A stretch of 64,000 nt of DNA, taken from contig NZ_FNQF01000005.1 in assembly GCF_900107595.1 (NCBI RefSeq), positions 1 to 64,000 on the forward strand, in the 5' to 3' direction. A program made the translations under genes and the position numbers. The number at the start of each line of letters is the position of its first letter. The first letter of the stretch is position 1. Below the pieces are notes generated by a model. It searched no databases, was not told where the DNA came from, and saw nothing but the letters and a program-made list of their open reading frames with translations. Source of the DNA: Psychroflexus halocasei (GTDB lineage: Bacteria > Bacteroidota > Bacteroidia > Flavobacteriales > Flavobacteriaceae). Positions 9,231 to 62,898 of this stretch are shown here, in pieces.

Positions 9231-9305
9231 GCGCTCGAGCGGGCTTTACGCTATATCTTTTTTTGTTATGAAAAAAACAAAAAAAGGATGCCACTTCAAT
9301 CCCTA
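9231..9305. repeat. palindrome-rich intergenic element, possibly a dispersed repeat
   Basis: The segment between copA and the DUF305 gene contains a perfect palindrome CGCTCGAGCG (9232-9241), then GGGCTTTACGCTATAT, then an 11-base stem (CTTTTTTTGTT at 9257-9267 pairing with AACAAAAAAAG at 9276-9286), then GGATGCCACTTCAATCC. Similar strings are, to my recollection, found in intergenic regions of other Flavobacteriaceae, but I cannot verify that here. It encodes no obvious protein; the hairpin could act as a terminator for copA. Confidence 0.4.
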
Positions 9306-9411
9306 GCGCAAATGCAGTGCCTTAGTAAATCAATCAGGTATAAATAAAATTAGATTTCAAGGCCAAAAACAACATAAATTTAAACGAGTATTAATGTAAA
9401 AATTTAAAATT

Positions 9412-16468: not shown

Positions 16469-17542
16469 TTAATAATTGAAAAATATTTCTTGGATTTCGT
16501 TGAGGCTTCGGTCTTTTAAGAGAGTTAGCATTAATAAAACTCTTGCTTTTGCAGGATTAAGTTCATCAGAAACAATGGTTTTGTACTCATCGTCATTGAC
16601 TTCTGCATTTCGCAATACATCACCAAGAGGAACACGTGTACTTCTAACGACAACAATTCCTTTATCTGTTGCTTTCTTAACTTCTTTAAGAGTTGCTGCA
16701 TTCATATTTCCATTACCTACACCTGCTATAACGATGCCTTTTGCACCTTTTTTAATAGAACTTGTTACAAAATCTGCAGGCATATCTGCATAAGCATAAA
16801 TAATATCTACACGAGGAAGAGATTTAACGCCCTTAACAGAAAATACGCTTTTTGTTGTATGTGTACTGTATGGTTTTCTGAAGTATTCTATATCGCCATA
16901 AATCACACTACCGATTTGACCTTCTATTGGTGACATAAAACTCTGTACAGCTGTTGTGTTAAACTTGGTCACATCATGCGCTGCATGAATTTGATCGTTC
17001 ATAACAACAGTTACGCCATGCCCTTTTGATTTTGGACTTGCAGCTACAGCTACAGCATTGTAAAGATTCAACGGCCCTTCAGCACTCAGAGCAGTCGCTG
17101 GTCGCATTGCTCCAGTAGTGACAATAGGTTTGTTACTGTCAACAACTAAACTCAAGAAATAAGCTGTCTCTTCTTGTGTATCAGTTCCGTGTGTGATAAC
17201 GATACCATCAACATCATCTGAAGCTAATAATTCATTCGCTTTTTTAGCGAGCTTTAACCAAATGTCTATTGACATATCTTGTGAGCCAACGTTAGAAATT
17301 TGTTCTCCAGTAATATTGGCTAGTTCTTTAATCCCTGGTGCTGCATCAATCATCGTATTGATGCCTAATTGTCCAGCTGTGTATCCTGCTTGATTACTAC
17401 CTTCAGCTGTACCAGCAATGGTTCCTCCAGTCGCGAGAATGACCACGTGAGGAAGGTCTTTGTTTTGAGCAAAACTTATATTAGTTAAACCAATAACTAA
17501 AACAAGTAAAAGCGCATGTCTAAATAATTTGAAAGTTTTCAT
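16469..17542 (-). CDS. ansB: type II L-asparaginase, periplasmic
   Basis: A 357-residue enzyme hydrolysing L-asparagine to aspartate and ammonia. A signal peptide (about 1-25, ending SFAQ) places it in the periplasm. Both active-site signatures are intact: ILATGGTIAGTA (catalytic Thr, about 36-47) and DGIVITHGTDTQEETAYFL (Thr-Asp pair, about 117-135); a Lys in the VMNDQIHAAHD region is expected later. Length matches E. coli AnsB. Its downstream position to dcuA and aspA makes a coherent pathway: asparagine is cleaved outside, aspartate imported and deaminated to fumarate. A 193-base gap separates it from aspA. Confidence 0.95.
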   Translation of the reverse strand: MKTFKLFRHALLLVLVIGLTNISFAQNKDLPHVVILATGGTIAGTAEGSNQAGYTAGQLGINTMIDAAPGIKELANITGEQISNVGSQDMSIDIWLKLAKKANELLASDDVDGIVITHGTDTQEETAYFLSLVVDSNKPIVTTGAMRPATALSAEGPLNLYNAVAVAASPKSKGHGVTVVMNDQIHAAHDVTKFNTTAVQSFMSPIEGQIGSVIYGDIEYFRKPYSTHTTKSVFSVKGVKSLPRVDIIYAYADMPADFVTSSIKKGAKGIVIAGVGNGNMNAATLKEVKKATDKGIVVVRSTRVPLGDVLRNAEVNDDEYKTIVSDELNPAKARVLLMLTLLKDRSLNEIQEIFFNY

Positions 17543-17735
17543 TTTAATGAGATTTATGTATTAAACATTAATTAATTTGCTTATTAAGCATGATAGTTTT
17601 ATTCTAAAAAACTATTAACAGTCATTGATGTGCTCCAGTGATTTTTTTACATTTTTTTAATCAGCTACAAAATTTTGCTTTCACATAGCGAGCATTTCCA
17701 TTATTTCTATCACTGGTTAATTTTATAGCAATATT

Positions 17736-19154
17736 TTATTTTTTAATCACTGCAGTATATTTCGGATGCATAAGGTTCTCAGGACTTAAAATTTTATCCA
17801 ATTCCTCTTCAGAGAGCAATTCTTTTTCAAGAATAAGTTCTCTAATTGTTTTTCCTGTTGCAACTGCTTCTTTCCCGATTACATCTCCCATATGGTGACC
17901 TATATAAGGATTAAGAAAAGTGATTAATCCTACAGAGTTGTAAACCATTTTTTTGGTATGTTCAGCGTTAGCTGTGATGCCTGAAATACATTTTCTAGCA
18001 AGTGTTTCAATGGCATTTGACAATAGTTCCATTGACTCAAATAAGCATTGTGCCATCACAGGTTCATAAACATTAAGTTGCAATTGTCCTGCTTCAGCAG
18101 CAAAAGAAACTGTTGCATCATTACCTATAATTTTAAAACAAACTTGGTTCACAACTTCTGGAATAACAGGATTAACTTTAGCTGGCATAATAGATGACCC
18201 AGCTTGCATTTGCGGCAGATTAATTTCATTTAATCCGCAACGAGGTCCTGAAGAAAGCAAACGTAAATCGTTACAGATTTTTGAAACTTTGACAGATGTT
18301 CTTTTTAAAGCGCCAGAAATAGTCACATAGTCACCACAATCTGATGTTGCCTCAATAAGATCTTCAGCTTCAACAAAACTTGCCTTTGTAAATTTTTGTA
18401 AATATCCTATTGAAAGTTCTGTAAATCCATCAGGTGCATTGACGCGTGTTCCTATTGCTGTACCGCCTAAATTAACCGGTAAAATAAGGTCTCTACAAGC
18501 CTTGAGATTTTTTGTTTCTTCTTTTAAATTTGTTGACCAAGCTGAAAACTCGTCACCTAAAGACATTGGGACTGCATCTTGCATTTGTGTTCTTCCCATC
18601 TTAATAACTTTTCTAAATTCAGCACTCTTTCTATCAAATTGATTAGTTAGAATATTGATTTTTTCAAGCAAATGGTTGATATAATAAAATATGGCAACGC
18701 GAAAACCAGTTGGATAAGCATCATTAGTCGATTGAGATTTATTAACATGGTCATTCGGATGCAGAATATCATAACTGCCTTTTGGGTGGCCATTTAAAGT
18801 AAGTGCCACATTCGTAATAACTTCATTGGTATTCATGTTAACTGAAGTTCCAGCGCCTCCCTGAAAAACATCAATCGGAAAGTATTCGATATATTTTTCC
18901 ATATTATTCAAGATCTCGTCACAAGCCTCAATAATCATGTCTGCTTGTTTTTTAGGGACCGTTCCGATATCTTTATTAGCAAAGGCACAAGCTTTTTTAG
19001 TTGTGACCATGCCTTTTATAAATATTGGATAATCACCTATCTTTCCATTTGAAATTTGGAAATTATTGAAGGCACGTTGAGTGTGTACACCAAAATAAAC
19101 ATCATCATTGATATCTAATTGTCCTAATAAATCTTCTTCTTTTCTAGTTTTCAT
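17736..19154 (-). CDS. aspA: aspartate ammonia-lyase (aspartase)
   Basis: A 472-residue cytoplasmic enzyme of the fumarase/aspartase superfamily that converts L-aspartate to fumarate and ammonia. It shows the superfamily signature [11 protein letters not shown] (about 318-328), the substrate-binding [10 protein letters not shown] (about 140) and [10 protein letters not shown] (about 188), and an N-terminus (RKEEDLLG) like AspA rather than FumC. The gene lies 38 bases after dcuA, the same partnership as the aspA-dcuA operon of E. coli. It supplies fumarate, for example as electron acceptor or TCA intermediate. Confidence 0.95.
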
Positions 19155-19192
19155 AATATTTATTTTTTGATCAATAGCTTATTTTAATAATT

Positions 19193-20494
19193 TTAAAGTA
19201 TTAAACCTCCTATCACAAAGCCGAACACGACACTTAATGCAATAGTTATTATTCCTGGGATGAGGAAAGAGTGGTTAAAAACATACTTTCCTATTTTGGT
19301 GGTTCCAGTATCGTCCATCTCTACAGCAGCGATTAATGTTGGATAAGTTGGTAGTACAAACAATGCGCTCACCGCTGCAAAAGATGCTATCGCAGCAACT
19401 GGACTCACTCCTAAAGAAAGTGCAGCCGGCATCAAGGCTACTGTTGTTGCAGCCTGAGAATAAAGCAGCATACTCGCAAAAAATAGTATGACAGCCAATA
19501 ACCAAGAGTAACTATTTAAAAGTCCTCCTGCAGCTTCTTTGATTTCTTCAATATGATTACTTACAAAAGTATCTCCTAGCCAAGCAACTCCGAGAACACA
19601 AACACAAGCACTCATACCTGATTTGAAAGTGGACATGCTCGTCACTTTACCGATATCTATTTTGCAAACTAAAGCAATAACTGCTGCTGTTAAGAGCATA
19701 ATAGCGATGATGGCTTGGTTACGAGAAATAGTCACATTTGTGATAATCCCAATATTCTCAGATGTTAATGTTGCATAAGCGACAACGATGATAATTGCTG
19801 CAAGAAAAATTCCTACAGAAAATTTAGCGCTTTTAGAATCTTTATGATCTTTTTTGTCTAAATGTTTGACTAAACCTTTTGCTTCTCTCTTTAAATAAAC
19901 AGGATCTTGATCTAAAGGTTTTTCCATCAAGTTTGCGATAAAGGCGCTACCCATAACTGCTAAGAAAGTGGTAGGAATCGCAACTGCTAACAATTGAAGA
20001 TATGATACGCCGAGAGGCTCAAGATAGTCTGCGAAAATAACAACAGCTGCAGATATTGGAGATGCTGTAATTGCTATTTGAGATGCAATGACAGATATGC
20101 TCAAGGGTTTAGAAGGTCTTACATTTCCTTCTTTAGAAACTTCAGTAATGACTGGCAATGCGGCATAGACGGTGTGGCCTGTGCCTGAAAGTAAAGTCAT
20201 GAAATAAGTGACTAATGGAGCTAAGAAAGTAACGCGTTTAGGATTTTTACGCAATATTTTTTCGGTAACGTGAACGAGATAATCCAATCCACCTGCGTTT
20301 TGCATTGCTGCAATTGCTGCAATAACAGACATAATAATCAGTATAACATCCACAGGAATAGAGCCAGCCTCTAAACCGAAAACCATAGTAAGGACAATAA
20401 CGCCAGCACCACCAGCGTAGCCAATTCCGATACCTCCCATTCTGGCTCCAATGAGTATAAATAAAAGGACGATTAATAGTTCAACCCAAATCAT
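19193..20494 (-). CDS. dcuA: anaerobic C4-dicarboxylate transporter DcuA
   Basis: A 433-residue inner-membrane carrier with about ten hydrophobic helices, the same length as E. coli DcuA. Stretches GGLDYLVH, SQIAITASPISAAVV, GMSACVCVLGVAWLGDTFVSN and LPTYPTLIAAVEMDDTGTT match DcuA closely and DcuB less well. It exchanges aspartate, fumarate, malate and succinate. First gene of the aspartate set; a candidate Crp/Fnr-type site lies upstream. A long leader of about 255 bases is predicted. Confidence 0.95.
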   Translation of the reverse strand: MIWVELLIVLLFILIGARMGGIGIGYAGGAGVIVLTMVFGLEAGSIPVDVILIIMSVIAAIAAMQNAGGLDYLVHVTEKILRKNPKRVTFLAPLVTYFMTLLSGTGHTVYAALPVITEVSKEGNVRPSKPLSISVIASQIAITASPISAAVVIFADYLEPLGVSYLQLLAVAIPTTFLAVMGSAFIANLMEKPLDQDPVYLKREAKGLVKHLDKKDHKDSKSAKFSVGIFLAAIIIVVAYATLTSENIGIITNVTISRNQAIIAIMLLTAAVIALVCKIDIGKVTSMSTFKSGMSACVCVLGVAWLGDTFVSNHIEEIKEAAGGLLNSYSWLLAVILFFASMLLYSQAATTVALMPAALSLGVSPVAAIASFAAVSALFVLPTYPTLIAAVEMDDTGTTKIGKYVFNHSFLIPGIITIALSVVFGFVIGGLIL

Positions 20495-20756
20495 AAGATA
20501 TAATTTTAGCGTTTGCAGAGATTTGATATAACCTCTTTAATCTTGTTAATAAATTTTGTAATGGATTCAGTGGTGTGGTATGTCGATTAACATTTACAAA
20601 TGGCCATTCTAATTAATGGGAATTAGACCGCCTTCTGAATTTTTCCATTCTGCGAATGAACTGTCTAAAGCTTAAGAAGTAATAATACCTTACAAAAAGA
20701 GCTTTTCTAAATCTGAAGATTTGCAAATTTTCGCAATCTACTATCAGATTACAATA

Positions 20757-20764
20757 CAAAATTA
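20757..20764 (-). promoter_or_regulatory. candidate -7 element of the dcuA-aspA operon
   Basis: TAATTTTG on the minus strand matches TAnnTTTG. There is no -33 TTG; instead a TGATnnnnATCA dyad lies upstream at activator distance. Confidence 0.5.
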
Positions 20765-20787
20765 CGCTTCATAAGGATCGCAGTAGA

Positions 20788-20799
20788 TGATTTATATCA
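20788..20799. promoter_or_regulatory. Crp/Fnr-type site upstream of dcuA
   Basis: TGATTTATATCA fits TGATnnnnATCA, the core of Fnr-family sites (TTGATnnnnATCAA). Its centre (20793.5) is 33 bases upstream of the centre of the dcuA -7 box, about -41.5 from the probable start, the class II activator position. The same motif and spacing occur before the universal stress gene at 62045-62088. Confidence 0.55.
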
Positions 20800-41737: not shown

Positions 41738-42034
41738 AACTATATAAAATTTAAAAGTTTAACTCCCGAAACTTTATAGAAATTGAGTTACATAAGAATT
41801 CAGCATTGAATAATGCGCAAGTGAAGACTTTTGTAAACCTTTATTCCCGAAAGTTTATTTTTCATTCTAAAGGCAGGTCTCCTGGCTTGCTAATTATTGT
41901 TGGCCTTCCCAGATAAATCCAGTGGCATGTTTCAACAATAACGACAGTATAGCTTACAGTTGCGGGTACAGCTCAAGATTTGATATCATCTCACTTGATT
42001 CCCTTTTCATGAACAATTGTTCAGCCTTATGGCG
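41738..42034 (-). promoter_or_regulatory. cobalamin riboswitch leader of the secreted-protein gene
   Basis: On the minus strand, from 5' to 3', are a GGGAA near 42003-41999, GCTGTACCCGCAACTGT (41972-41956), GCCACTG (41926-41920), TGGGAAGGCC (41911-41902) and the B12 box AAGCCAGGAGACCTGCC (41888-41872). These are the conserved core elements of the adenosylcobalamin aptamer in the right order. The aptamer covers about 41870-42005; the rest to the start codon at 41737 is an expression platform containing two similar CTTTCGGGA/GTTTCGGGA segments. The riboswitch would lower expression when B12 is plentiful. Confidence 0.93.
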
Positions 42035-42042
42035 CAAATATA
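42010..42042 (-). promoter_or_regulatory. promoter of the riboswitch transcript and 14-base palindrome
   Basis: TATATTTG on the minus strand (42035-42042) matches TAnnTTTG. Just downstream lies a perfect palindrome TGAACAATTGTTCA (42010-42023), near the expected transcription start (about 42028). The palindrome may be a protein operator or a 5' hairpin of the leader. Confidence 0.45.
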
Positions 42043-42151
42043 GAGTTAAATTTTGAGATTTGTTTACTCTCAGTTTCAATCTTTCTTATCTCTATCATTC
42101 AGAGATTCTATGCAGATTATTTTTTAGGCTTTAAAGCAATTCAACTTTCCA

Positions 42152-51997: not shown

Positions 51998-52197
51998 AGT
52001 TTTATGAGCTTAAATTTTTTGTAATATTCTATATTGAAAATACGATAGAAAATTTTGTATTATTTTGGTTTGTATGAATGTGATAATTTTAAAAAGGGCA
52101 TTTAAATTTTGCTTTTTGCTCGCGTAATTACAAAGGTATACGAATATTCAATCATTAAAAATATACAGGAAACAAATAAGAATTTTATTGACTTATG

Positions 52198-54780
52198 TCA
52201 ATAAGAATTGTGTTTTCTTTTTCTCAGTATGAGAAAAATACATAAGATAGCTCCGAGAATAATAAAGATTATCCACCATTTTATTTGTGGAGAATCTGTT
52301 TCTTGAGGTATCTCTATTTCGCCGTAATACACAAATCCAGCCCAATAATAAGGTGATTGTTTATGGTTTCTAATTTCAAAATGATCTAGGTAATCTAATT
52401 TTGATTGATGTAAGGCATAGGATTTTGATTGATGATTTTCAAAATAACTATAAAAAGATGTCATCATCTCAGCTGTTGATTGGTCGTTGACTTGCCATAA
52501 TGAAAAAAGTAAGTTTTTTGCTCCAGCATATTGAAAACCTCTAGCGAGACTCATGGCGCCTTCGCTCCCTTGAATTTTACCAATTCCTGTTTCACAAGCA
52601 CTCAAAACAACAAGCTCAGGGTTTAAATCTAGAGTATATAACTCGGGTAATATCAGTGTTTCATCATAAAAAGCTAAGCTTGCAGGTACTGAAAAGTTGC
52701 CGCCTTGCGCATGAGTTGATAAATGCAATATGTTATAATGAGAGGCTTTTTTTAAAAATTCAGATTTTGTGGCTTTGTTTTGGTATAAAATATCTGAGTT
52801 TTCTAATTTTCCAAAGCTTTTTGCTTCTTCTTTTGAGTAGCTTAATTCATAACTGGTATTGTCAAAAATCGGAAAAACGCCAAGTTGATTTTTTAAATCT
52901 GATTCTTTTCTATCATCTAAATAAAATGAAATAGAAGTTTGATAAGTCAAAGATTTCTCACGAATTAAAAATGGCATTTTCTCAAATTGGGAGGTCTTAC
53001 TTTTTTCTGTCAAGAAGGAATCAAATGGCGTAAAACTCAATAAAGCATCAGGAACAATAACAATGTTTTTTGATTGAAGTTGTTTTAAATTTAAATCTTG
53101 GTAAAGTCGATGAGCGCTTTCTTTGAAGTCTTTGAGTTGAGAATTGATGGCTGAAGGATCCTCAAAGAAAGATAAGTATGTTTTGACAGGTTTTCGTAAA
53201 TCTTTAGCGGTTCCTGTTTTGTTAAACGCAGTAGTTTTTTCTGTGATCAGGAAATCGTAAACCGATTCTTGGCCAAAAAAATACAGCTGCATCTCAGCTT
53301 TGTCAAGTTCTAATTTCTTTTGAATTTCTCCTATTGAAACCTGATGATTCGTTGTTTGTTTTAAATCTTTATCAATTAGTTCTTGTGTTTGGTTGTATGC
53401 TAAATTGATTTTATTTAATGCTTTAAGAACACTGTCAGAAGGTTTTTCATTATTTAATTGAGATCTTATAACACGATTGATAAGTGATTGTTGAAGCTTT
53501 TTCAATTCTAGGCTTTTTGATAAAATTGAGTCTTGAGGTTGAGTCTCCGAAATTGCACGTTTCTTTATATTTTTTTTTAAAACGATTGCTTTATTATTTT
53601 CAACATAATTCAGCGCTCGTTTGAAAATAGAGTTGTCACTTGATTTTTTTGACTGCTCATATAAAATACCTAAACAAGTTTCGGTTCTTTTTTTTGATGA
53701 GCTGAGGTGTAATATTTTAGCTTGCTGACTTGTGATTTCATGATTGATTAAATCAGAAACATAAAAACTCAAATCGTAATACTGAAGCGCTTTTTCCCAA
53801 TCGTCTTGTAGTTTCGCGAGTCCATCAAAAATTGTGAGAAATGTATTTTCAGGATACAGAATATCTCGATCGGTAAAAGTTTCTAAATCTTGCTGAGGTA
53901 AAAGTGTTTTTAGAGCTTTAAAAAAACTTTTTTCAGCTTTATCGTATTCTTTATTGAAGAGATAAATATCAGCTTTTTCAGTATAAAACTTTGCTAAGTC
54001 TCTCGCATTGATGTCTGCTTTTTTAATCAGTATTTCTTCAGCTAACTTCATCTTATTTTTAGCTTCTGAAATTTCATTGTTTTTCAAATGCAGTAAAGCC
54101 TCATTTTTATAGTAATTGAAAGAACGCTCAACTTCACTAGAATTTGAAACTAATTTCTTTGCTTTTTCGTAATCTTTTAAAGCAATTAGATTTGTGGTTA
54201 AATTATTTTTTAAAGCTTCCTTTTGTTCTGGCTTTAAGTCAACTTTTTTTAGTTTTTCTTCTAAAATATCAATCGCCATTTTGAAATGACCTGTGTTGTG
54301 ATAAACAACAGATAAATTAATGATGCCCGCTATTTCTTGATCTTTATTATTTTCTTTTATCGCTTGATTGATATATGTTTTAATAATGTTTTCAGCTTGA
54401 GTGAAATTGCCTGTTTTTGTATAAAGATTGCCTAGCGGTTTAAGGCAATATTCAGTGATGTCGTAATTGTCAAAATTTTCTTCTTGATACAAAAGCCAAG
54501 CTTTCTCATATAATGAAATAGCTTCCTGCGTTCGGTTATATTTTTTTGAATAATAACCCATGTTACATTGGGCAATAACCACTGCTAATTTTTCTTCAGG
54601 CTTTAAATTTTTCTGAGAAATTTTATTGATTTCTAACTTAAATTGATCGAGATGTTCTTCACTAGGCGAAGCGACAAAAGTATCAAGTGAATTGTATATG
54701 CTGTCTTCTAAATTTTGAGCTTGAGCTTGAAAAGCACAGAAAATTAAGATGCAAATAAATCTTAAATATAAATTTCGCAT
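52198..54780 (-). CDS. periplasmic TPR-CHAT protease-like protein
   Basis: An 860-residue protein with a signal peptide (about 1-21, ending AQAQ), a long tetratricopeptide region (about 30-400), a linker and a C-terminal CHAT domain (about 520-830). Both catalytic residues of this caspase/separase-like clan are visible: His in LHLSTHA (about 690) and Cys in VVLSACETG (about 729), followed by GAMSLARGFQYAGAKNLLFSLW. A transmembrane helix (about 835-852) and a basic tail (RKRKHNSY) close the protein, placing the CHAT domain on the periplasmic side. The gene lies 32 bases after the PKD/barrel gene. Substrate unknown. Confidence 0.9.
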   Translation of the reverse strand: MRNLYLRFICILIFCAFQAQAQNLEDSIYNSLDTFVASPSEEHLDQFKLEINKISQKNLKPEEKLAVVIAQCNMGYYSKKYNRTQEAISLYEKAWLLYQEENFDNYDITEYCLKPLGNLYTKTGNFTQAENIIKTYINQAIKENNKDQEIAGIINLSVVYHNTGHFKMAIDILEEKLKKVDLKPEQKEALKNNLTTNLIALKDYEKAKKLVSNSSEVERSFNYYKNEALLHLKNNEISEAKNKMKLAEEILIKKADINARDLAKFYTEKADIYLFNKEYDKAEKSFFKALKTLLPQQDLETFTDRDILYPENTFLTIFDGLAKLQDDWEKALQYYDLSFYVSDLINHEITSQQAKILHLSSSKKRTETCLGILYEQSKKSSDNSIFKRALNYVENNKAIVLKKNIKKRAISETQPQDSILSKSLELKKLQQSLINRVIRSQLNNEKPSDSVLKALNKINLAYNQTQELIDKDLKQTTNHQVSIGEIQKKLELDKAEMQLYFFGQESVYDFLITEKTTAFNKTGTAKDLRKPVKTYLSFFEDPSAINSQLKDFKESAHRLYQDLNLKQLQSKNIVIVPDALLSFTPFDSFLTEKSKTSQFEKMPFLIREKSLTYQTSISFYLDDRKESDLKNQLGVFPIFDNTSYELSYSKEEAKSFGKLENSDILYQNKATKSEFLKKASHYNILHLSTHAQGGNFSVPASLAFYDETLILPELYTLDLNPELVVLSACETGIGKIQGSEGAMSLARGFQYAGAKNLLFSLWQVNDQSTAEMMTSFYSYFENHQSKSYALHQSKLDYLDHFEIRNHKQSPYYWAGFVYYGEIEIPQETDSPQIKWWIIFIILGAILCIFLILRKRKHNSY

Positions 54781-58260: not shown

Positions 58261-58842
58261 ATGAGCGTACAAAAAGCACATCCTGATCAAAAATATATAG
58301 AAGGTTTAAAGCAAGACAATTCATTTGTTATCAGAGAAATCTATGATAAATTTGCGCCTAAAGTCATTCATTTTATTTGTCAGAATAATGGTGATGATGC
58401 ACAAGCAAAAGATGTTATTCAAGAAGTTCTTCTAGTTATTTATGACCAAGCTTGTATTAAAGACCTAAAATTAACCTGCCCTTTTGATGCTTATTTTTTC
58501 TTGTTATGTAAAAGAAGGTGGTATAATAAATTGAAAAAGAAAAAGCTAGACACGGTAACAATTAAAGAAGAGATTGTATCTGAACATGAAGGAGCCAATC
58601 ATTTAGAATTTGAAACCAGTCTTTTTCAAGATCAACAAGAGCTTTTTAAAAGGATGTTTGGAGAATTAGGGAAATCTTGTCAAGACTTGTTAAAGAAGTC
58701 ATTTGAAATAGATTCTATGAAAAAAGTCGCAGAAAAACTTGATATTTCTTACGCTTATGCTAGAAAAAAGAAATCTTTATGCATAGGTAAACTGACTGAA
58801 ATGATTCAGAATTCTCCTCATTATAAAAATTTAAAATCGTAA
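58261..58842 (+). CDS. ECF-type RNA polymerase sigma factor
   Basis: A 193-residue sigma-70 family protein with only regions 2 and 4: region 2 includes REIYDKFAPKVIHFICQ, AKDVIQEVLLVIYDQ and DAYFFLLCKRRWYN (about 25-90); region 4 includes SCQDLLKKSF, MKKVAEKLDISYAYARKKKSLCIGKL (about 140-180). The next gene starts 2 bases later and is a membrane protein with the layout of an anti-sigma factor. It probably controls the divergent lipoprotein and PKD-CHAT genes; that is inference from position. Confidence 0.92.
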   Translation: MSVQKAHPDQKYIEGLKQDNSFVIREIYDKFAPKVIHFICQNNGDDAQAKDVIQEVLLVIYDQACIKDLKLTCPFDAYFFLLCKRRWYNKLKKKKLDTVTIKEEIVSEHEGANHLEFETSLFQDQQELFKRMFGELGKSCQDLLKKSFEIDSMKKVAEKLDISYAYARKKKSLCIGKLTEMIQNSPHYKNLKS

Positions 58843-58844
58843 AA

Positions 58845-59576
58845 ATGAAAGAGCAGGAATACATTTTAATAGAGAATTATTTAGCTGATGATTTGACAGC
58901 TAAGGAGTTAGGGGATTTTGAAGATAAGTTAAGGACTGATTTAGAATTTAGAGAAACATTTGAAACTTATCAACAAGTTTCGGATCAACTTAAGCATGAG
59001 TTTACACATTATTCTGAAAAAGAAGCTGTGAAGAAATCTATTGATAAAGTTGCTAATACTTATTTTGAAAAGAAAAAAGAACAACCGAAAAAATCAAGTT
59101 TTAAACCATGGCGAATAGGAGTGGCAGCGATGATTCTAATTCTTGTTGGAATTTATGCTTACCAAGAATTTTCAACACCAGTTTATAGTGATTATAATCA
59201 GTACCCAACGGTAAGTTTTCAGAGTAGAGGAGAAGAAAGTGAAAGCTTAAGAGAAGCTGAGGAGGCTTTTAACTCACATCAATTTGCTGAAGCAGCAACC
59301 CATTTTGAGGTCTTGGTTAAAGGAAATGATAATGTTGAATACAAATTATATTGGGCAATTTCTTTAGTTGAAACTGATCAGTTTGAAAAAGCAGATCAAC
59401 TTTATCTTGATATTTTAAAAAGTGAAAGTGTATTTGTTCATGAAGCTTTATGGTTTGGTGCATTGAGTAAACTAAAACAAGAAGACAATAAAGCAGCTTC
59501 ACAATTACTGAGTCAGATTCCTGAAGAAAGTGATAGATACAAAGAAGCTCAAAAGCTTTATAAAAAACTCAATTAA
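58845..59576 (+). CDS. putative anti-sigma factor with periplasmic TPR domain
   Basis: A 243-residue protein with an N-terminal cytoplasmic helical part (about 1-85; YILIENYLADDLTAKELGDFEDKL resembles the start of Bacteroidetes anti-sigma proteins), one transmembrane helix (about 91-107) and a C-terminal TPR-like region (about 130-243). No zinc-binding HxxxCxxC motif is present. The 2-base spacing after the sigma gene indicates coupling. TPRs on the outside could bind the TPR-CHAT protein or its product. Anti-sigma function is inferred from layout and position. Confidence 0.75.
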   Translation: MKEQEYILIENYLADDLTAKELGDFEDKLRTDLEFRETFETYQQVSDQLKHEFTHYSEKEAVKKSIDKVANTYFEKKKEQPKKSSFKPWRIGVAAMILILVGIYAYQEFSTPVYSDYNQYPTVSFQSRGEESESLREAEEAFNSHQFAEAATHFEVLVKGNDNVEYKLYWAISLVETDQFEKADQLYLDILKSESVFVHEALWFGALSKLKQEDNKAASQLLSQIPEESDRYKEAQKLYKKLN

Positions 59577-59749: not shown

Positions 59750-61009
59750 GTGAGGAACAAAAAAGGTTTTGAAAATGATATAGAAATCTTTAAACTTTTA
59801 TTTGAAGGTATTTCTGAGGGCGTTATTGTTGTTGATAAATCCAAAAGTATTATAGAACTAAACACATCTGCATGCGAAATGTTTGGCTACACTTGTGATG
59901 AATTGGTGGGACAACATCTTGATGTACTCATTCCTTCAAAATTTCATCAGAAGCATAAAACATATACAGATCAGTATTTAAGCACACCAAAACGTCGCCA
60001 AATGGGCATAGGAAAAGAGCTTTACGGTGTGACTAAGGATGGACATGAGTTTCCGGTTGAGGTTGGTTTAAACCCGTTTAAGCTTAAAAATGAAGATTTT
60101 GTGATGTCTATGGTAACCGATATTACTATCAGAAAGGAAAATGAGGTTGTTATTGAAAGACTTAATTTAGAGCTTGAGAGAAAAATTCAGCGTCGTACCG
60201 AAGAATTAGAACAGACAATAAGGAAGTTAACTAGCCTTAATAAAGCGCTTGAAATAGAGATAAATAAGAGGAAAATTGCAGAAGCTAAAACTAAAGACGC
60301 ACTTCAGAAAGAACGTGAATTAAGCGAGTTAAAAACCAAATTTTTATCTTTAGTTTCTCATGAATTTAAAACCCCTTTGAGCGGTATTTTAACATCAACT
60401 AGTTTAATAGGTAAATATCAAAAGACAGACCAGCAAGATAAGCGAGATAAGCACCTTAAAACGATTAAGAATAAAGTACATTATCTTACAGGAATCCTAA
60501 ATGACTTCTTGTCAGTTGAGCGTTTAGAGACTGGCAAAGTCACTTATAATTATGAGGATTTCAGCTTGGTTAACCTTGTTAATGAAGTCATCTATGGAGC
60601 TAATATTACATTAAAAGAAGGCCAGAACCTTCACTATCCAAAAGATGTTGAGGATGTAACTTTAAAGCAAGATAAAAATGTTATAGAGTTAATTTTTTCA
60701 AATTTATTAAGTAACGCCATCAAATATTCACCTGAACACACAGATATTTACTTTAAAGTTGATACCACAGACGAGAAAATTTTAAAATTTGAGATTCAAG
60801 ATCAAGGTATAGGTATTCCAGCAGAAGATCAAAAACATATTTTTCAACGTTATTTCAGAGCAGAAAATGCTTTGCTTAATCAAGGAACAGGAATCGGGCT
60901 AAATATAGTTAAAGATCACCTTGAAAATCTCAATGGAAAAATTAAATTTGAAAGCAAAGAAAATATAGGAACGATTTTTTTTATAGAAATACCAAAGAGA
61001 CATGAGTAA
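59750..61009 (+). CDS. PAS-domain sensor histidine kinase
   Basis: A 419-residue soluble kinase without membrane segments. It starts with GTG. Domains: PAS (about 12-130, with EGVIVVDKSKSIIELNTSACEMFGY and a PAC-like MSMVTDITIRKE end), coiled coil (about 135-195), HisKA (SLVSHEFKTPLSGI, His about 203) and HATPase (NLLSNAIKYSPEHT, DQGIGIPAEDQ, GTGIGLNIVKDHL). PAS may bind heme, flavin or another ligand, which cannot be read from sequence here. It overlaps the regulator gene by 8 bases, so the two form a two-component pair. Confidence 0.93.
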   Translation: MRNKKGFENDIEIFKLLFEGISEGVIVVDKSKSIIELNTSACEMFGYTCDELVGQHLDVLIPSKFHQKHKTYTDQYLSTPKRRQMGIGKELYGVTKDGHEFPVEVGLNPFKLKNEDFVMSMVTDITIRKENEVVIERLNLELERKIQRRTEELEQTIRKLTSLNKALEIEINKRKIAEAKTKDALQKERELSELKTKFLSLVSHEFKTPLSGILTSTSLIGKYQKTDQQDKRDKHLKTIKNKVHYLTGILNDFLSVERLETGKVTYNYEDFSLVNLVNEVIYGANITLKEGQNLHYPKDVEDVTLKQDKNVIELIFSNLLSNAIKYSPEHTDIYFKVDTTDEKILKFEIQDQGIGIPAEDQKHIFQRYFRAENALLNQGTGIGLNIVKDHLENLNGKIKFESKENIGTIFFIEIPKRHE

Positions 61010-62042
61010 GAAAGTGCTTTTAATTGAAGACGATCAAACTGTAAGAGAAAATACAGCCGAAATTTTGGAATTATCTGATTATGATGTCGAAACTGCAGCA
61101 GATGGAGAGATTGGTATTCAGAGTGCTATTCGATTTCAGCCGGATATTATAGTTTGTGATATTATGATGCCAAAATTAGATGGTTATGATGTTTTAAAAG
61201 CATTATCTCAACATCCAAAAACTAAGCGACTTCCTTTTATATTTCTATCTGCAAAAACCGATCGCAATGACGTCCGCAGAGGAATGAATCTTGGCGCAGA
61301 TGATTATTTAACAAAGCCTTTTGAAGAAGACGATTTGATACATGCGATTGAAAGCAGAATTGCAAAAACTAAAATATTACAAGAGCGAGAAATTGAAGAA
61401 GTTGAAGACTCTAATCAACTTCAGTCTTTTGAGGCCTTGAAAGAAATTATTAAAGATTTTGAAATTCAAGTTTACGATCAAAATGAAATGATTTATGAAG
61501 CTGGACAAACAGCTAATCGTGTTTTTTTAATTGAAAGAGGTGTTGTGAAAACACATCAAATCGATCAAAACGGGAAAGAGTTAACCACAGCTCTTTTTCG
61601 AGATGATAACTTTTTTGGGCAGTTAAGCTTTACTAAAACTTCAAACTATGTTGATAATGCAACTGCTATGGAAAAAACAAAGCTTTATGAAATTTCTATA
61701 GATGATTTCAGGAAGTTTTTTAATAAAAATCCACAAGTTATGTTTGAGTTCATTGATAATCTTGGCGATTCTTTAAATGAAACAAAATCTCAACTTGTAG
61801 AGATGGCTTATAGTTCTGTCCGTAAAAAAACAGCCCAAACGGTATTGGTTTTTGCTGAGCGCTTAAAGAAAAACAAGTTGAATCAAATTCGTATTTCTAG
61901 AGCAGACCTTGCTGCTGTTGCTGGAATAGCATCGGAAAGTTTAATTAGGACTTTATCTGATTTTAAAAAAAGAGGAATCATCCAAGTTGAGGGAAGAAAT
62001 ATAAAAATCCTTGACTTTGAAGCTCTAAAGAATATATCCTAA
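61002..62042 (+). CDS. response regulator with Crp/Fnr-type output (receiver-cNMP-HTH)
   Basis: A 346-residue fusion: a receiver domain (1-120; IEDD, Asp53 in IIVCDIMMPKLDG, LSAKT, TKPF), a cyclic-nucleotide-binding-like beta roll (about 155-240; MIYEAGQTANRVFLIERGVVKTHQ) and a Crp-type winged helix (about 270-340). The recognition helix reads IASESLIRTLSDFKKRG: it keeps the Glu and Arg that contact TGA in Crp/Fnr proteins but lacks Crp's extra Arg and Fnr's Ser. No Fnr-type Cys cluster is present. Overlaps the kinase gene by 8 bases. Target candidates are the TGATnnnnATCA sites at 62045 and 20788. Confidence 0.93.
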   Translation: MSKKVLLIEDDQTVRENTAEILELSDYDVETAADGEIGIQSAIRFQPDIIVCDIMMPKLDGYDVLKALSQHPKTKRLPFIFLSAKTDRNDVRRGMNLGADDYLTKPFEEDDLIHAIESRIAKTKILQEREIEEVEDSNQLQSFEALKEIIKDFEIQVYDQNEMIYEAGQTANRVFLIERGVVKTHQIDQNGKELTTALFRDDNFFGQLSFTKTSNYVDNATAMEKTKLYEISIDDFRKFFNKNPQVMFEFIDNLGDSLNETKSQLVEMAYSSVRKKTAQTVLVFAERLKKNKLNQIRISRADLAAVAGIASESLIRTLSDFKKRGIIQVEGRNIKILDFEALKNIS

Positions 62043-62044
62043 AC

Positions 62045-62058
62045 ATGATTTTTATCAT
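62045..62058. promoter_or_regulatory. Crp/Fnr-type site upstream of the universal stress gene
   Basis: ATGATTTTTATCAT is a perfect dyad with core TGATnnnnATCA. Its centre (62051.5) is 33 bases before the centre of the TACATTTG -7 box, the same distance as at dcuA, and about -41.5 from the probable start site. Confidence 0.55.
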
Positions 62059-62080: not shown

Positions 62081-62088
62081 TACATTTG
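62081..62088 (+). promoter_or_regulatory. -7 element of the universal stress gene
   Basis: TACATTTG matches TAnnTTTG exactly. No -33 TTG exists; the dyad at 62045-62058 takes the activator position. The box overlaps a possible TTG start at 62086, favouring ATG 62107. Confidence 0.5.
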
Positions 62089-62106: not shown

Positions 62107-62898
62107 ATGAATGTATTAGTGTTAACCGACTTTTCTGAAATCTCCGAACATATTTTAAAATATGCTGGGACAGTTTTGCATGACCGTGAGGTATATTTTA
62201 CACTTTTAAACATACAATTGCCATGTTCAAATTTTAATTGTCGTGGTGAGTGTAAAGATTTGACTGAACCTAAATTTGATAAAAACTTAAAAACAATTAA
62301 GCCTTTTCTAGATGAAAAGCATACAATTAAACCTTTGTTTTTAGAAGGTCGATATATCGAATCAATTCGAAAAACAGTTGAGTCTCATGAGATTGATTTA
62401 ATTATTTTAGGGAATAGTCACTCATATCAAACTTCAAATGCATCTGAACTTGACAAGAAAACTTTTGATATTATCACAAAAATTAAATGTCACGTTTTAT
62501 TGGTGTCCAAGTATAGCGAAATCAAAATTCCTGAAAAATTTGTTCTGCCAACAGATTTCTCAATATCAGTTGATCACAAATTATTCTCAATAATTAAGCA
62601 ATTATATTCAGTTGAGACAAGTGAGCTTTCCGTACTTTCCTTACCTAAATCGGATAAAATGTCTGAAAGACAATCTTTGACTAAAGAACGTATCAACAGG
62701 ATTGTCTCAAATTTAGATTTTGAATATATTAAAAATATTAATGCGGCTAACGATAATTTGCACACAGAGAAAATGTTTGACTCAGGCATAATTTTTGCTA
62801 GAAATCTCAGTATTTTTAATCGTATTTTTTCAAAATCTCACCAAACCGCACAGCACATAAGTGACAAACATTTGCCAATGTTGTTTTTGCATGGTTGA
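62107..62898 (+). CDS. universal stress protein (two Usp-like domains)
   Basis: A 263-residue protein with a UspA-like N-terminal half (MNVLVLTDFSEISEHILKYAGTVL; later DLIILGNSHSYQTS and CHVLLVSK) and a degenerate second half (KFVLPTDFSISVDHK...LPMLFLHG). The glycine-rich ATP loop GxxGx(9)GS is poorly preserved. The cluster CSNFNCRGEC near residues 46-55 has three Cys spaced CxxxxCxxxC, unusual for the family and a possible metal or redox site. A longer start at 62086 falls in the promoter, so ATG 62107 is chosen. Likely activated by the preceding regulator. Confidence 0.82.
   Translation: MNVLVLTDFSEISEHILKYAGTVLHDREVYFTLLNIQLPCSNFNCRGECKDLTEPKFDKNLKTIKPFLDEKHTIKPLFLEGRYIESIRKTVESHEIDLIILGNSHSYQTSNASELDKKTFDIITKIKCHVLLVSKYSEIKIPEKFVLPTDFSISVDHKLFSIIKQLYSVETSELSVLSLPKSDKMSERQSLTKERINRIVSNLDFEYIKNINAANDNLHTEKMFDSGIIFARNLSIFNRIFSKSHQTAQHISDKHLPMLFLHG

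Follow-up and report, generated by a model that had tools for sequence, protein, structure and literature searches.

Two promoters in one stretch of DNA from Psychroflexus halocasei, those of dcuA and of a usp-like gene, carry the same kind of dyad at the same distance from the promoter box. This arrangement raises two questions: whether it is an operator and, if so, which protein reads it. Promoter operators and activators are little known in Bacteroidota. The window, i.e., the whole stretch of DNA analyzed (64,000 nucleotides of contig NZ_FNQF01000005.1), contains the following features at the two loci.

16469 to 17542, minus strand: asparaginase, same direction as the genes below, 193-base gap (Pfam Asparaginase, 2e-60)
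17736 to 19154, minus strand: aspA, aspartate ammonia-lyase, 38 bases after dcuA (NCBIfam aspA, 706 bits, over the cut-off)
19193 to 20494, minus strand: dcuA, anaerobic C4-dicarboxylate transporter (NCBIfam Dcu, 6e-186; Pfam DcuA_DcuB)
20757 to 20764, minus strand (read from 20764 to 20757): -7 box of dcuA, TAATTTTG
20788 to 20799, minus strand (read from 20799 to 20788): dcuA dyad, TGATATAAATCA, an exact match in the genome scan
59750 to 61009, plus strand: sensor kinase with PAS, HisKA and HATPase domains (Pfam)
61002 to 62042, plus strand: REC-CRP, a receiver joined to a cNMP-binding fold and HTH_Crp_2 (Pfam Response_reg, cNMP_binding, HTH_Crp_2)
62046 to 62057, plus strand: usp dyad, TGATTTTTATCA, with a dyad in 78 of the 80 related loci (best 80 of 305)
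62081 to 62088, plus strand: -7 box of usp, TACATTTG, with TAnnTT equally placed in all 78 related promoters
62107 to 62898, plus strand: usp, universal stress protein-like (Pfam Usp, 9e-5, just under the cut-off)

Geometry and conservation of the two promoters

At both promoters, 23 bases separate the dyad from a TAnnTTTG box and the two centers are 33 bases apart, exactly as the initial annotation had placed them. In the available text of the start-site map of F. psychrophilum, this box spans -12 to -5 (PMC9723704). The -7 boxes listed above follow that register, and because of it the dyad centers are predicted at -41.5, in agreement with the position near -41.5 proposed earlier; the predicted transcription starts are 20752 for dcuA and 62093 for usp. 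The dyads have the GA-N6-TC core of CRP/FNR-type operators and, with this predicted center, the class II position, and the TAnnTTTG box at both promoters, with TAnnTT in 78 of 78 related usp promoters, marks predicted promoters of the Bacteroidota primary sigma factor.

Two earlier claims stood in part. The absence of a -33 element held for the two window gaps, neither of which contains TTG, but TTG is present in 31 of 78 related usp gaps. Likewise, the likeness to Fnr-type sites held for dyad geometry, but not for the E. coli half-site that had been quoted, as the outer base differs here. The base 3' of RTCA is T in 13 of the 14 exact sites of the P. halocasei genome and in 78 of 78 related usp promoters, and the base 5' of TGAY in the latter is C in 54 and A in 24. 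The operator consensus is (C/A)TGAYnnnnRTCAT and not the E. coli FNR box TTGATnnnnATCAA, whose outer T/A does not describe the own-genome and usp-promoter sites. A third copy with one mismatch (dyad TGACATAAGTCA, box TATATTTT) is located at 52158-52200 on the minus strand of the window, 168 bases 5' of where the ORF of a membrane-like protein (132 aa, no Pfam match) has its first ATG.

The usp promoter was compared in related loci, defined as the best 80 of 305 REC-CRP relatives, from named genomes of Psychroflexus, Christiangramia/Gramella, Salegentibacter, Kordia, Aquimarina, Winogradskyella and others. TGAYN4RTCA was found no more than 400 bases 3' of the REC-CRP gene and before a usp-like gene in 78 of these 80 loci, the usp-like genes being recognized by eye from their N-termini; in the remaining two (L058 and L089), no dyad was found after the REC-CRP gene. 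The full strict pattern occurs in 62 loci, all 62 with a gap of 23. The dyad core was fixed by this search, and the box was left out of the search pattern; TAnnTT is nevertheless at gap 23 in all 78 dyad-bearing promoters, with the last G in 75. When 63 usp promoters under 85% alike were compared, the spacer showed weak conservation: T is frequent immediately 3' of the dyad, and pyrimidines are favored, though less strongly, 5' of the box. The usp gene likely starts at ATG 62107 (the listed ORF opens at an upstream TTG) and, judged by eye, has the same place and a similar N-terminus in the related loci. Two other explanations of the usp region found no support, a terminator hairpin (0 terminators found) and a proteobacterial sigma-70 promoter (8 promoter-like sites versus 5.3 expected).

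Conservation speaks far less for the dcuA promoter than for the usp promoter. Few genomes encode the transporter (6 of 80, own included). Its congeneric ortholog (91% identity) has TGATATAAGTCA at gap 23 from TAATTTTA, with one box mismatch, and the site was not found at the next ortholog (77%), so that it is kept in one of the two orthologs with at least 77% identity. The leader from the predicted start is 258 bases long. Structured RNA found no support as the reason for this leader (z of -1.8; 8 of 200 shuffles fold as well), and the leader has no Rfam match at the gathering score. The one-directional set of asparaginase, aspA and dcuA (16469-20799) possibly represents an asparagine-aspartate-fumarate route.

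Frequency of the pattern and the genes behind it

It could be argued that AT-rich DNA yields TGATN4ATCA near TAnnTTTG by chance and that two copies in the window are meaningless, given that both motifs are short and AT-rich. The dyad TGATN4ATCA alone was observed 9 times in the window versus 2.86 expected, and 9 was reached by 1 of 100 shuffles. When TGATN4ATCA-N23-TAnnTTTG was searched for in the own genome (2.67 Mb), 6 exact matches were found, and 23 with at most one mismatch versus 0 for the reversed pattern; the relaxed pattern TGAYN4RTCA-N23-TAnnTTTG gave 14 exact matches, and 35 with at most one mismatch versus 3 reversed. An exact match is present in 141 of 246 genomes of the order, and the 40 own-family genomes have 347 exact sites versus 8 in the reversed control.

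Spacing was tested by searching for TGATN4ATCA followed by TAnnTTTG at gaps of 8 to 38 in eight genomes, which were picked for FNR not being found in them and not for their site counts. A reversed control with free gap gave 27 matches in these genomes, a point in favor of chance, versus 90 for the true pattern; 21 of the 27 were in G072 and G206. Gap 23 accounted for 27 of the 90, a lone peak with a Poisson probability of 6e-21; the 30 other gaps averaged 2.1 matches, and none exceeded 7. The scan suggested in the initial annotation (dyad, 22-24 bases, TAnnTTTG) accordingly produced a strong excess, and exactly at gap 23. Taken with the shuffles, the reversed controls and the conserved usp promoter, this peak led us to reject a chance origin as scarcely credible; the dyad-box layout is almost certainly a real operator.

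All 14 exact own-genome sites are located outside ORFs over 100 aa, and each has a same-strand ORF downstream. Family searches named the associated genes as dcuA, usp, ccoN, copper nitrite reductase (nirK), hemN, a cytochrome c, OmpW, a ribosome hibernation factor (S30AE, hpf), a thioredoxin-like protein and three small unknowns, as well as a copper P-type ATPase that its place in the cco cluster marks as ccoI and a COX1-family protein distantly like ccoN. One of the small unknowns is the first gene of the operon, described below, with a possible truncated haemoglobin. At the ccoN site, a ccoS-like small ORF is directly 3' of the box, inside an apparent 250-base ccoN leader. There are 21 own-genome sites with one mismatch, of which 19 were examined: 9 are within ORFs and were dropped from the regulon, and 10 are outside, including those of fixH/ccoH, a di-haem cytochrome c peroxidase, a pyridine nucleotide oxidoreductase, formate-THF ligase and an RND adaptor. 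Several of these genes are FNR or FixK targets elsewhere. Sites precede cbb3 oxidase, hemN, nitrite reductase, cytochrome c and related genes.

Annotation covered 30 of the 47 exact sites in seven other family genomes in which FNR was not found; ccoN is behind a site in 4 of these genomes and hemN in 3 (both recognized by N-terminal sequence), and 2 of the 30 sites overlap longer ORFs. The REC-CRP-adjacent usp is among the annotated exact sites in 3 of the 7, and not in G072, G206, G102 and G241, with G072 and G241 partly annotated. Because ccoN and hemN have sites in these genomes, FNR-type targets keep the site though FNR was not found. In the own genome the sites, at about 14 promoters or more, look like an FNR-type microaerobic/redox regulon. 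Both this gene content and the spacing excess support the earlier suggestion that an oxygen- or redox-linked activator of the FNR class uses this layout throughout the genome.

CRP/FNR proteins and the adjoining sensor kinase

A search of the own genome for CRP-type proteins gave three that pass the family cut-off and a fourth, weak match. The three are REC-CRP, a protein of about 227 aa beside a rhodanese-like gene, with a recognition helix without Glu, and a short stand-alone protein outside the window:

C26:392822-393415 of the own genome (G000): 198-aa stand-alone CRP/FNR protein

The 198-aa protein has one cysteine, near the C-terminus, and so no N-terminal cysteine cluster. No FNR-like protein was found among the own genome's CRP-type matches, nor any FNR match at 1e-50. 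Other family genomes encode an FNR-like protein of 225-240 aa with the helix ATESxIR and, in most, CEQC near the N-terminus. A tree with a midpoint root was built from 45 rows, 18 of them REC-CRP with the receiver removed. In it, REC-CRP forms one group (92/80), which is joined (97/89) to the FNR group and two other proteins. REC-CRP, then, groups with its own family's FNR. A very long branch places the 198-aa protein outside FNR and REC-CRP, and the program flags such rows as unsure.

Scored at 1e-50, FNR was found in 32 of the 40 own-family genomes and not in 8; this threshold is the basis of all absences except those in the own genome and G102, in which the CRP-type proteins were listed. 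The eight comprise three genomes of Psychroflexus and five of three other genera, and all have a full-length REC-CRP. REC-CRP is thus present in 8 of 8 FNR-less genomes versus 15 of 32 FNR-bearing ones, a difference (Fisher 0.0125) that is weakened by the 1e-50 threshold, by the origin of the FNR-less genomes from four genera only and by the scoring of at most 8 REC-CRP candidates per genome, which makes REC-CRP absences uncertain. With G114, a receiver-only match, counted as lacking REC-CRP, 17 family genomes have FNR only, 15 have both and none lacks both. Mean site counts are 11.6 with both, 6.6 with FNR only and 7.6 with REC-CRP only. We rejected the presence of a single regulator as an explanation of these counts, as sites occur with FNR only, with REC-CRP only, with both and with 198-aa CRP relatives. 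Since sites are also found in genomes without REC-CRP, the site is not specific to it; and since they are frequent where FNR is present without REC-CRP, the site class is older or wider than this protein.

REC-CRP, a candidate regulator that the initial annotation had passed over, is a protein of 346 aa whose stop codon is 3 bases before the usp dyad. Asp53, Lys105, Glu312, Ile315 and Arg316 are invariant in 81 of 81 sequences, and the residues of a two-component response regulator are in place (D10, D11, D53 and K105 in 81 of 81; S/T at position 83 in 81 of 81). Its recognition helix, A-x-E-S/T-L-I-R, may be compared with A-T-E-S-x-I-R of FNR. The N-terminal cysteine cluster by which FNR binds 4Fe-4S is absent from REC-CRP, and the receiver stands there. 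The cAMP pocket of CRP is marked by Glu/Arg-Ser; judged by eye, the REC-CRP stretch FFGQLSFTKTSNYVDNATA is without the Arg-Ser pair. One genome (G138) carries two REC-CRP proteins (C1:533590 and C1:2668267; L162 and L150), one of them on a long branch.

The end of the kinase gene overlaps the REC-CRP gene, the pair spanning 59750-62042, and the kinase is at most 60 bases upstream of the REC-CRP gene in 78 of the 80 related loci (best 80 of 305). Taken alone, the PAS part has its best PDB match in FixL (1d06, 1.3e-15), and DosP also matches. Kinase His69 is aligned with the proximal haem histidine of FixL, and His occupies this position in 78 of 79 aligned kinases, own included. The aligned histidine binds haem in FixL. 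At position 89, the counterpart of the distal arginine of FixL, 71 of the 79 kinases have Arg, 5 (own included) have Lys and 3 have Thr. The FixL match, the aligned His and the receiver residues support the view that the kinase may sense oxygen via a FixL-like, possibly haem-binding domain and may act on REC-CRP. Just 5' of the kinase and REC-CRP genes are an ECF-type sigma factor gene and a possible anti-sigma gene (58261-59576, plus strand), the latter scoring below the model cut-off.

Candidate regulators of the sites

We consider it probable that these FNR-class operators are read in the genus mainly by REC-CRP, with the PAS kinase as its partner. From the sites, the distances within them, the genes of the regulon, conservation, domain architecture and kinship, we infer how binding, activation, phosphotransfer and signal would be arranged in this system. 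The operator of an FNR-class activator would replace the -33 element, centered at -41.5 (class II), on promoters of the primary sigma factor. REC-CRP is most likely the main protein that reads the dyad in Psychroflexus, and its activity would be set by phosphorylation of the fused receiver domain, with the phosphate supplied by the PAS kinase. As oxygen falls, it would activate usp, dcuA, ccoS-ccoN, ccoI, hemN, nirK and others.

The dyads could instead be real class II operators that are read by the 198-aa protein, with REC-CRP controlling only usp. The helix of the 198-aa protein, VETVIRA, keeps Glu and Ile-Arg, and its gene is located between two exact sites (C26:392721-393480, L125); because of the similar helix and the flanking sites, some of the regulon may be shared with this protein or belong to it. 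It is present in 6 of the 8 FNR-less own-family genomes, and its relatives have multiplied in family f5, in which genomes with sites are common, FNR gave no match at 1e-50 and REC-CRP mostly gave none. However, it was not found at 1e-15 in G102 and G167, which have 3 and 7 exact sites, and one of the G102 sites precedes what seems, by eye, to be a counterpart of the small membrane protein from the operon next to the 198-aa gene in the own genome; its long branch, in a row of the kind flagged as unsure, also separates it from the group of FNR and REC-CRP. We regard exclusive reading by this protein, apart from usp, as unlikely. A further reading is that REC-CRP, the 198-aa protein and, where present, FNR all read one shared site, so that the regulon integrates several signals. 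The recognition helices are similar, half-sites vary between TGAT and TGAC, and the 15 of 40 family genomes with both FNR and REC-CRP have the highest mean site count; on the other hand, the overlap is deduced from helices and presence only, and site counts depend also on genome size and lineage. Such sharing is possible, if rather doubtful, and it is compatible with predominant reading by REC-CRP, whose probability it shares.

Of the two sites that flank the 198-aa gene, one serves a divergent gene and the other a downstream operon, in which a 131-aa protein without a Pfam match may, by eye, be a truncated haemoglobin. Relatives of the 198-aa protein reach 11 matches in one genome of family f5 (G129).

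Predominant reading by REC-CRP can be compared with known systems. E. coli FNR class II promoters, with TTGATnnnnATCAA at -41.5, have the same geometry, position and kind of target, and E. coli FNR has the same CRP fold and Glu...Arg recognition helix as REC-CRP. It differs in that the outer half-site base is T in E. coli and A or C here, that the promoters here are of the Bacteroidota TAnnTTTG type, and that FNR has an N-terminal cysteine cluster where REC-CRP has a receiver. The FixL-FixJ-FixK2 system of Bradyrhizobium, as generally described, also combines a FixL-like PAS kinase, a receiver and a CRP/FNR output, and has kinds of target in common with the sites here, cbb3 oxidase, hemN and nirK among them. 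In contrast to that system, receiver and CRP/FNR output are fused here and there is no transcriptional FixJ-to-fixK step; haem binding, a property of FixL, is only putative for the kinase. The work that FixL, FixJ and FixK divide among three proteins would here fall to two, the kinase and REC-CRP. Closest to home, the FNR-like protein of the own family belongs to a neighboring clade, has a similar helix and occurs with the same site class in its genomes, but it stands alone without a receiver and was not found in the three sampled Psychroflexus genomes.

More tentatively, and with somewhat greater doubt than confidence, we propose that FNR has been lost in Psychroflexus and at least three other flavobacterial genera, and that its regulon is run there by a haem-PAS kinase and a receiver-fused FNR-like activator, a collapsed FixL-FixJ-FixK cascade with one phosphorylation step, through the half-site (A/C)TGAY that replaces the -33 element. 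If true, a global oxygen regulon would have moved from FNR to a phosphorylation-controlled relative with its DNA site unchanged. The analysis offers a sharply defined operator that can be tested, in fixed register with the TAnnTTTG box, along with named targets for low oxygen and an unusually built candidate regulator.

Bacteroidota CRP/FNR proteins have been proposed for hcp or carbon sensing (HcpR and MalR; PMC1274295, PMC8510549), including a Flavobacteriales CRP homolog assigned to carbon sensing (PMC8510549). These belong to the same protein family and phylum, and the available parts of the two reports describe no receiver fusion or TGAYnnnnRTCA operator. In F. psychrophilum, cbb3 oxidase and haem synthesis genes are reported to be raised on oxygen limitation (PMC9723704), and a word search found neither FNR nor CRP in the main text of that paper. 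Among the matches listed, open-access titles and the beginnings of abstracts contained no such receiver-CRP fusion or operator.

Elsewhere in the window, on the minus strand, we observed a Flavo-1 RNA motif of unassigned function (9233-9312, Rfam 62.1 bits) and a cobalamin riboswitch (41855-42044, Rfam 102.8 bits).
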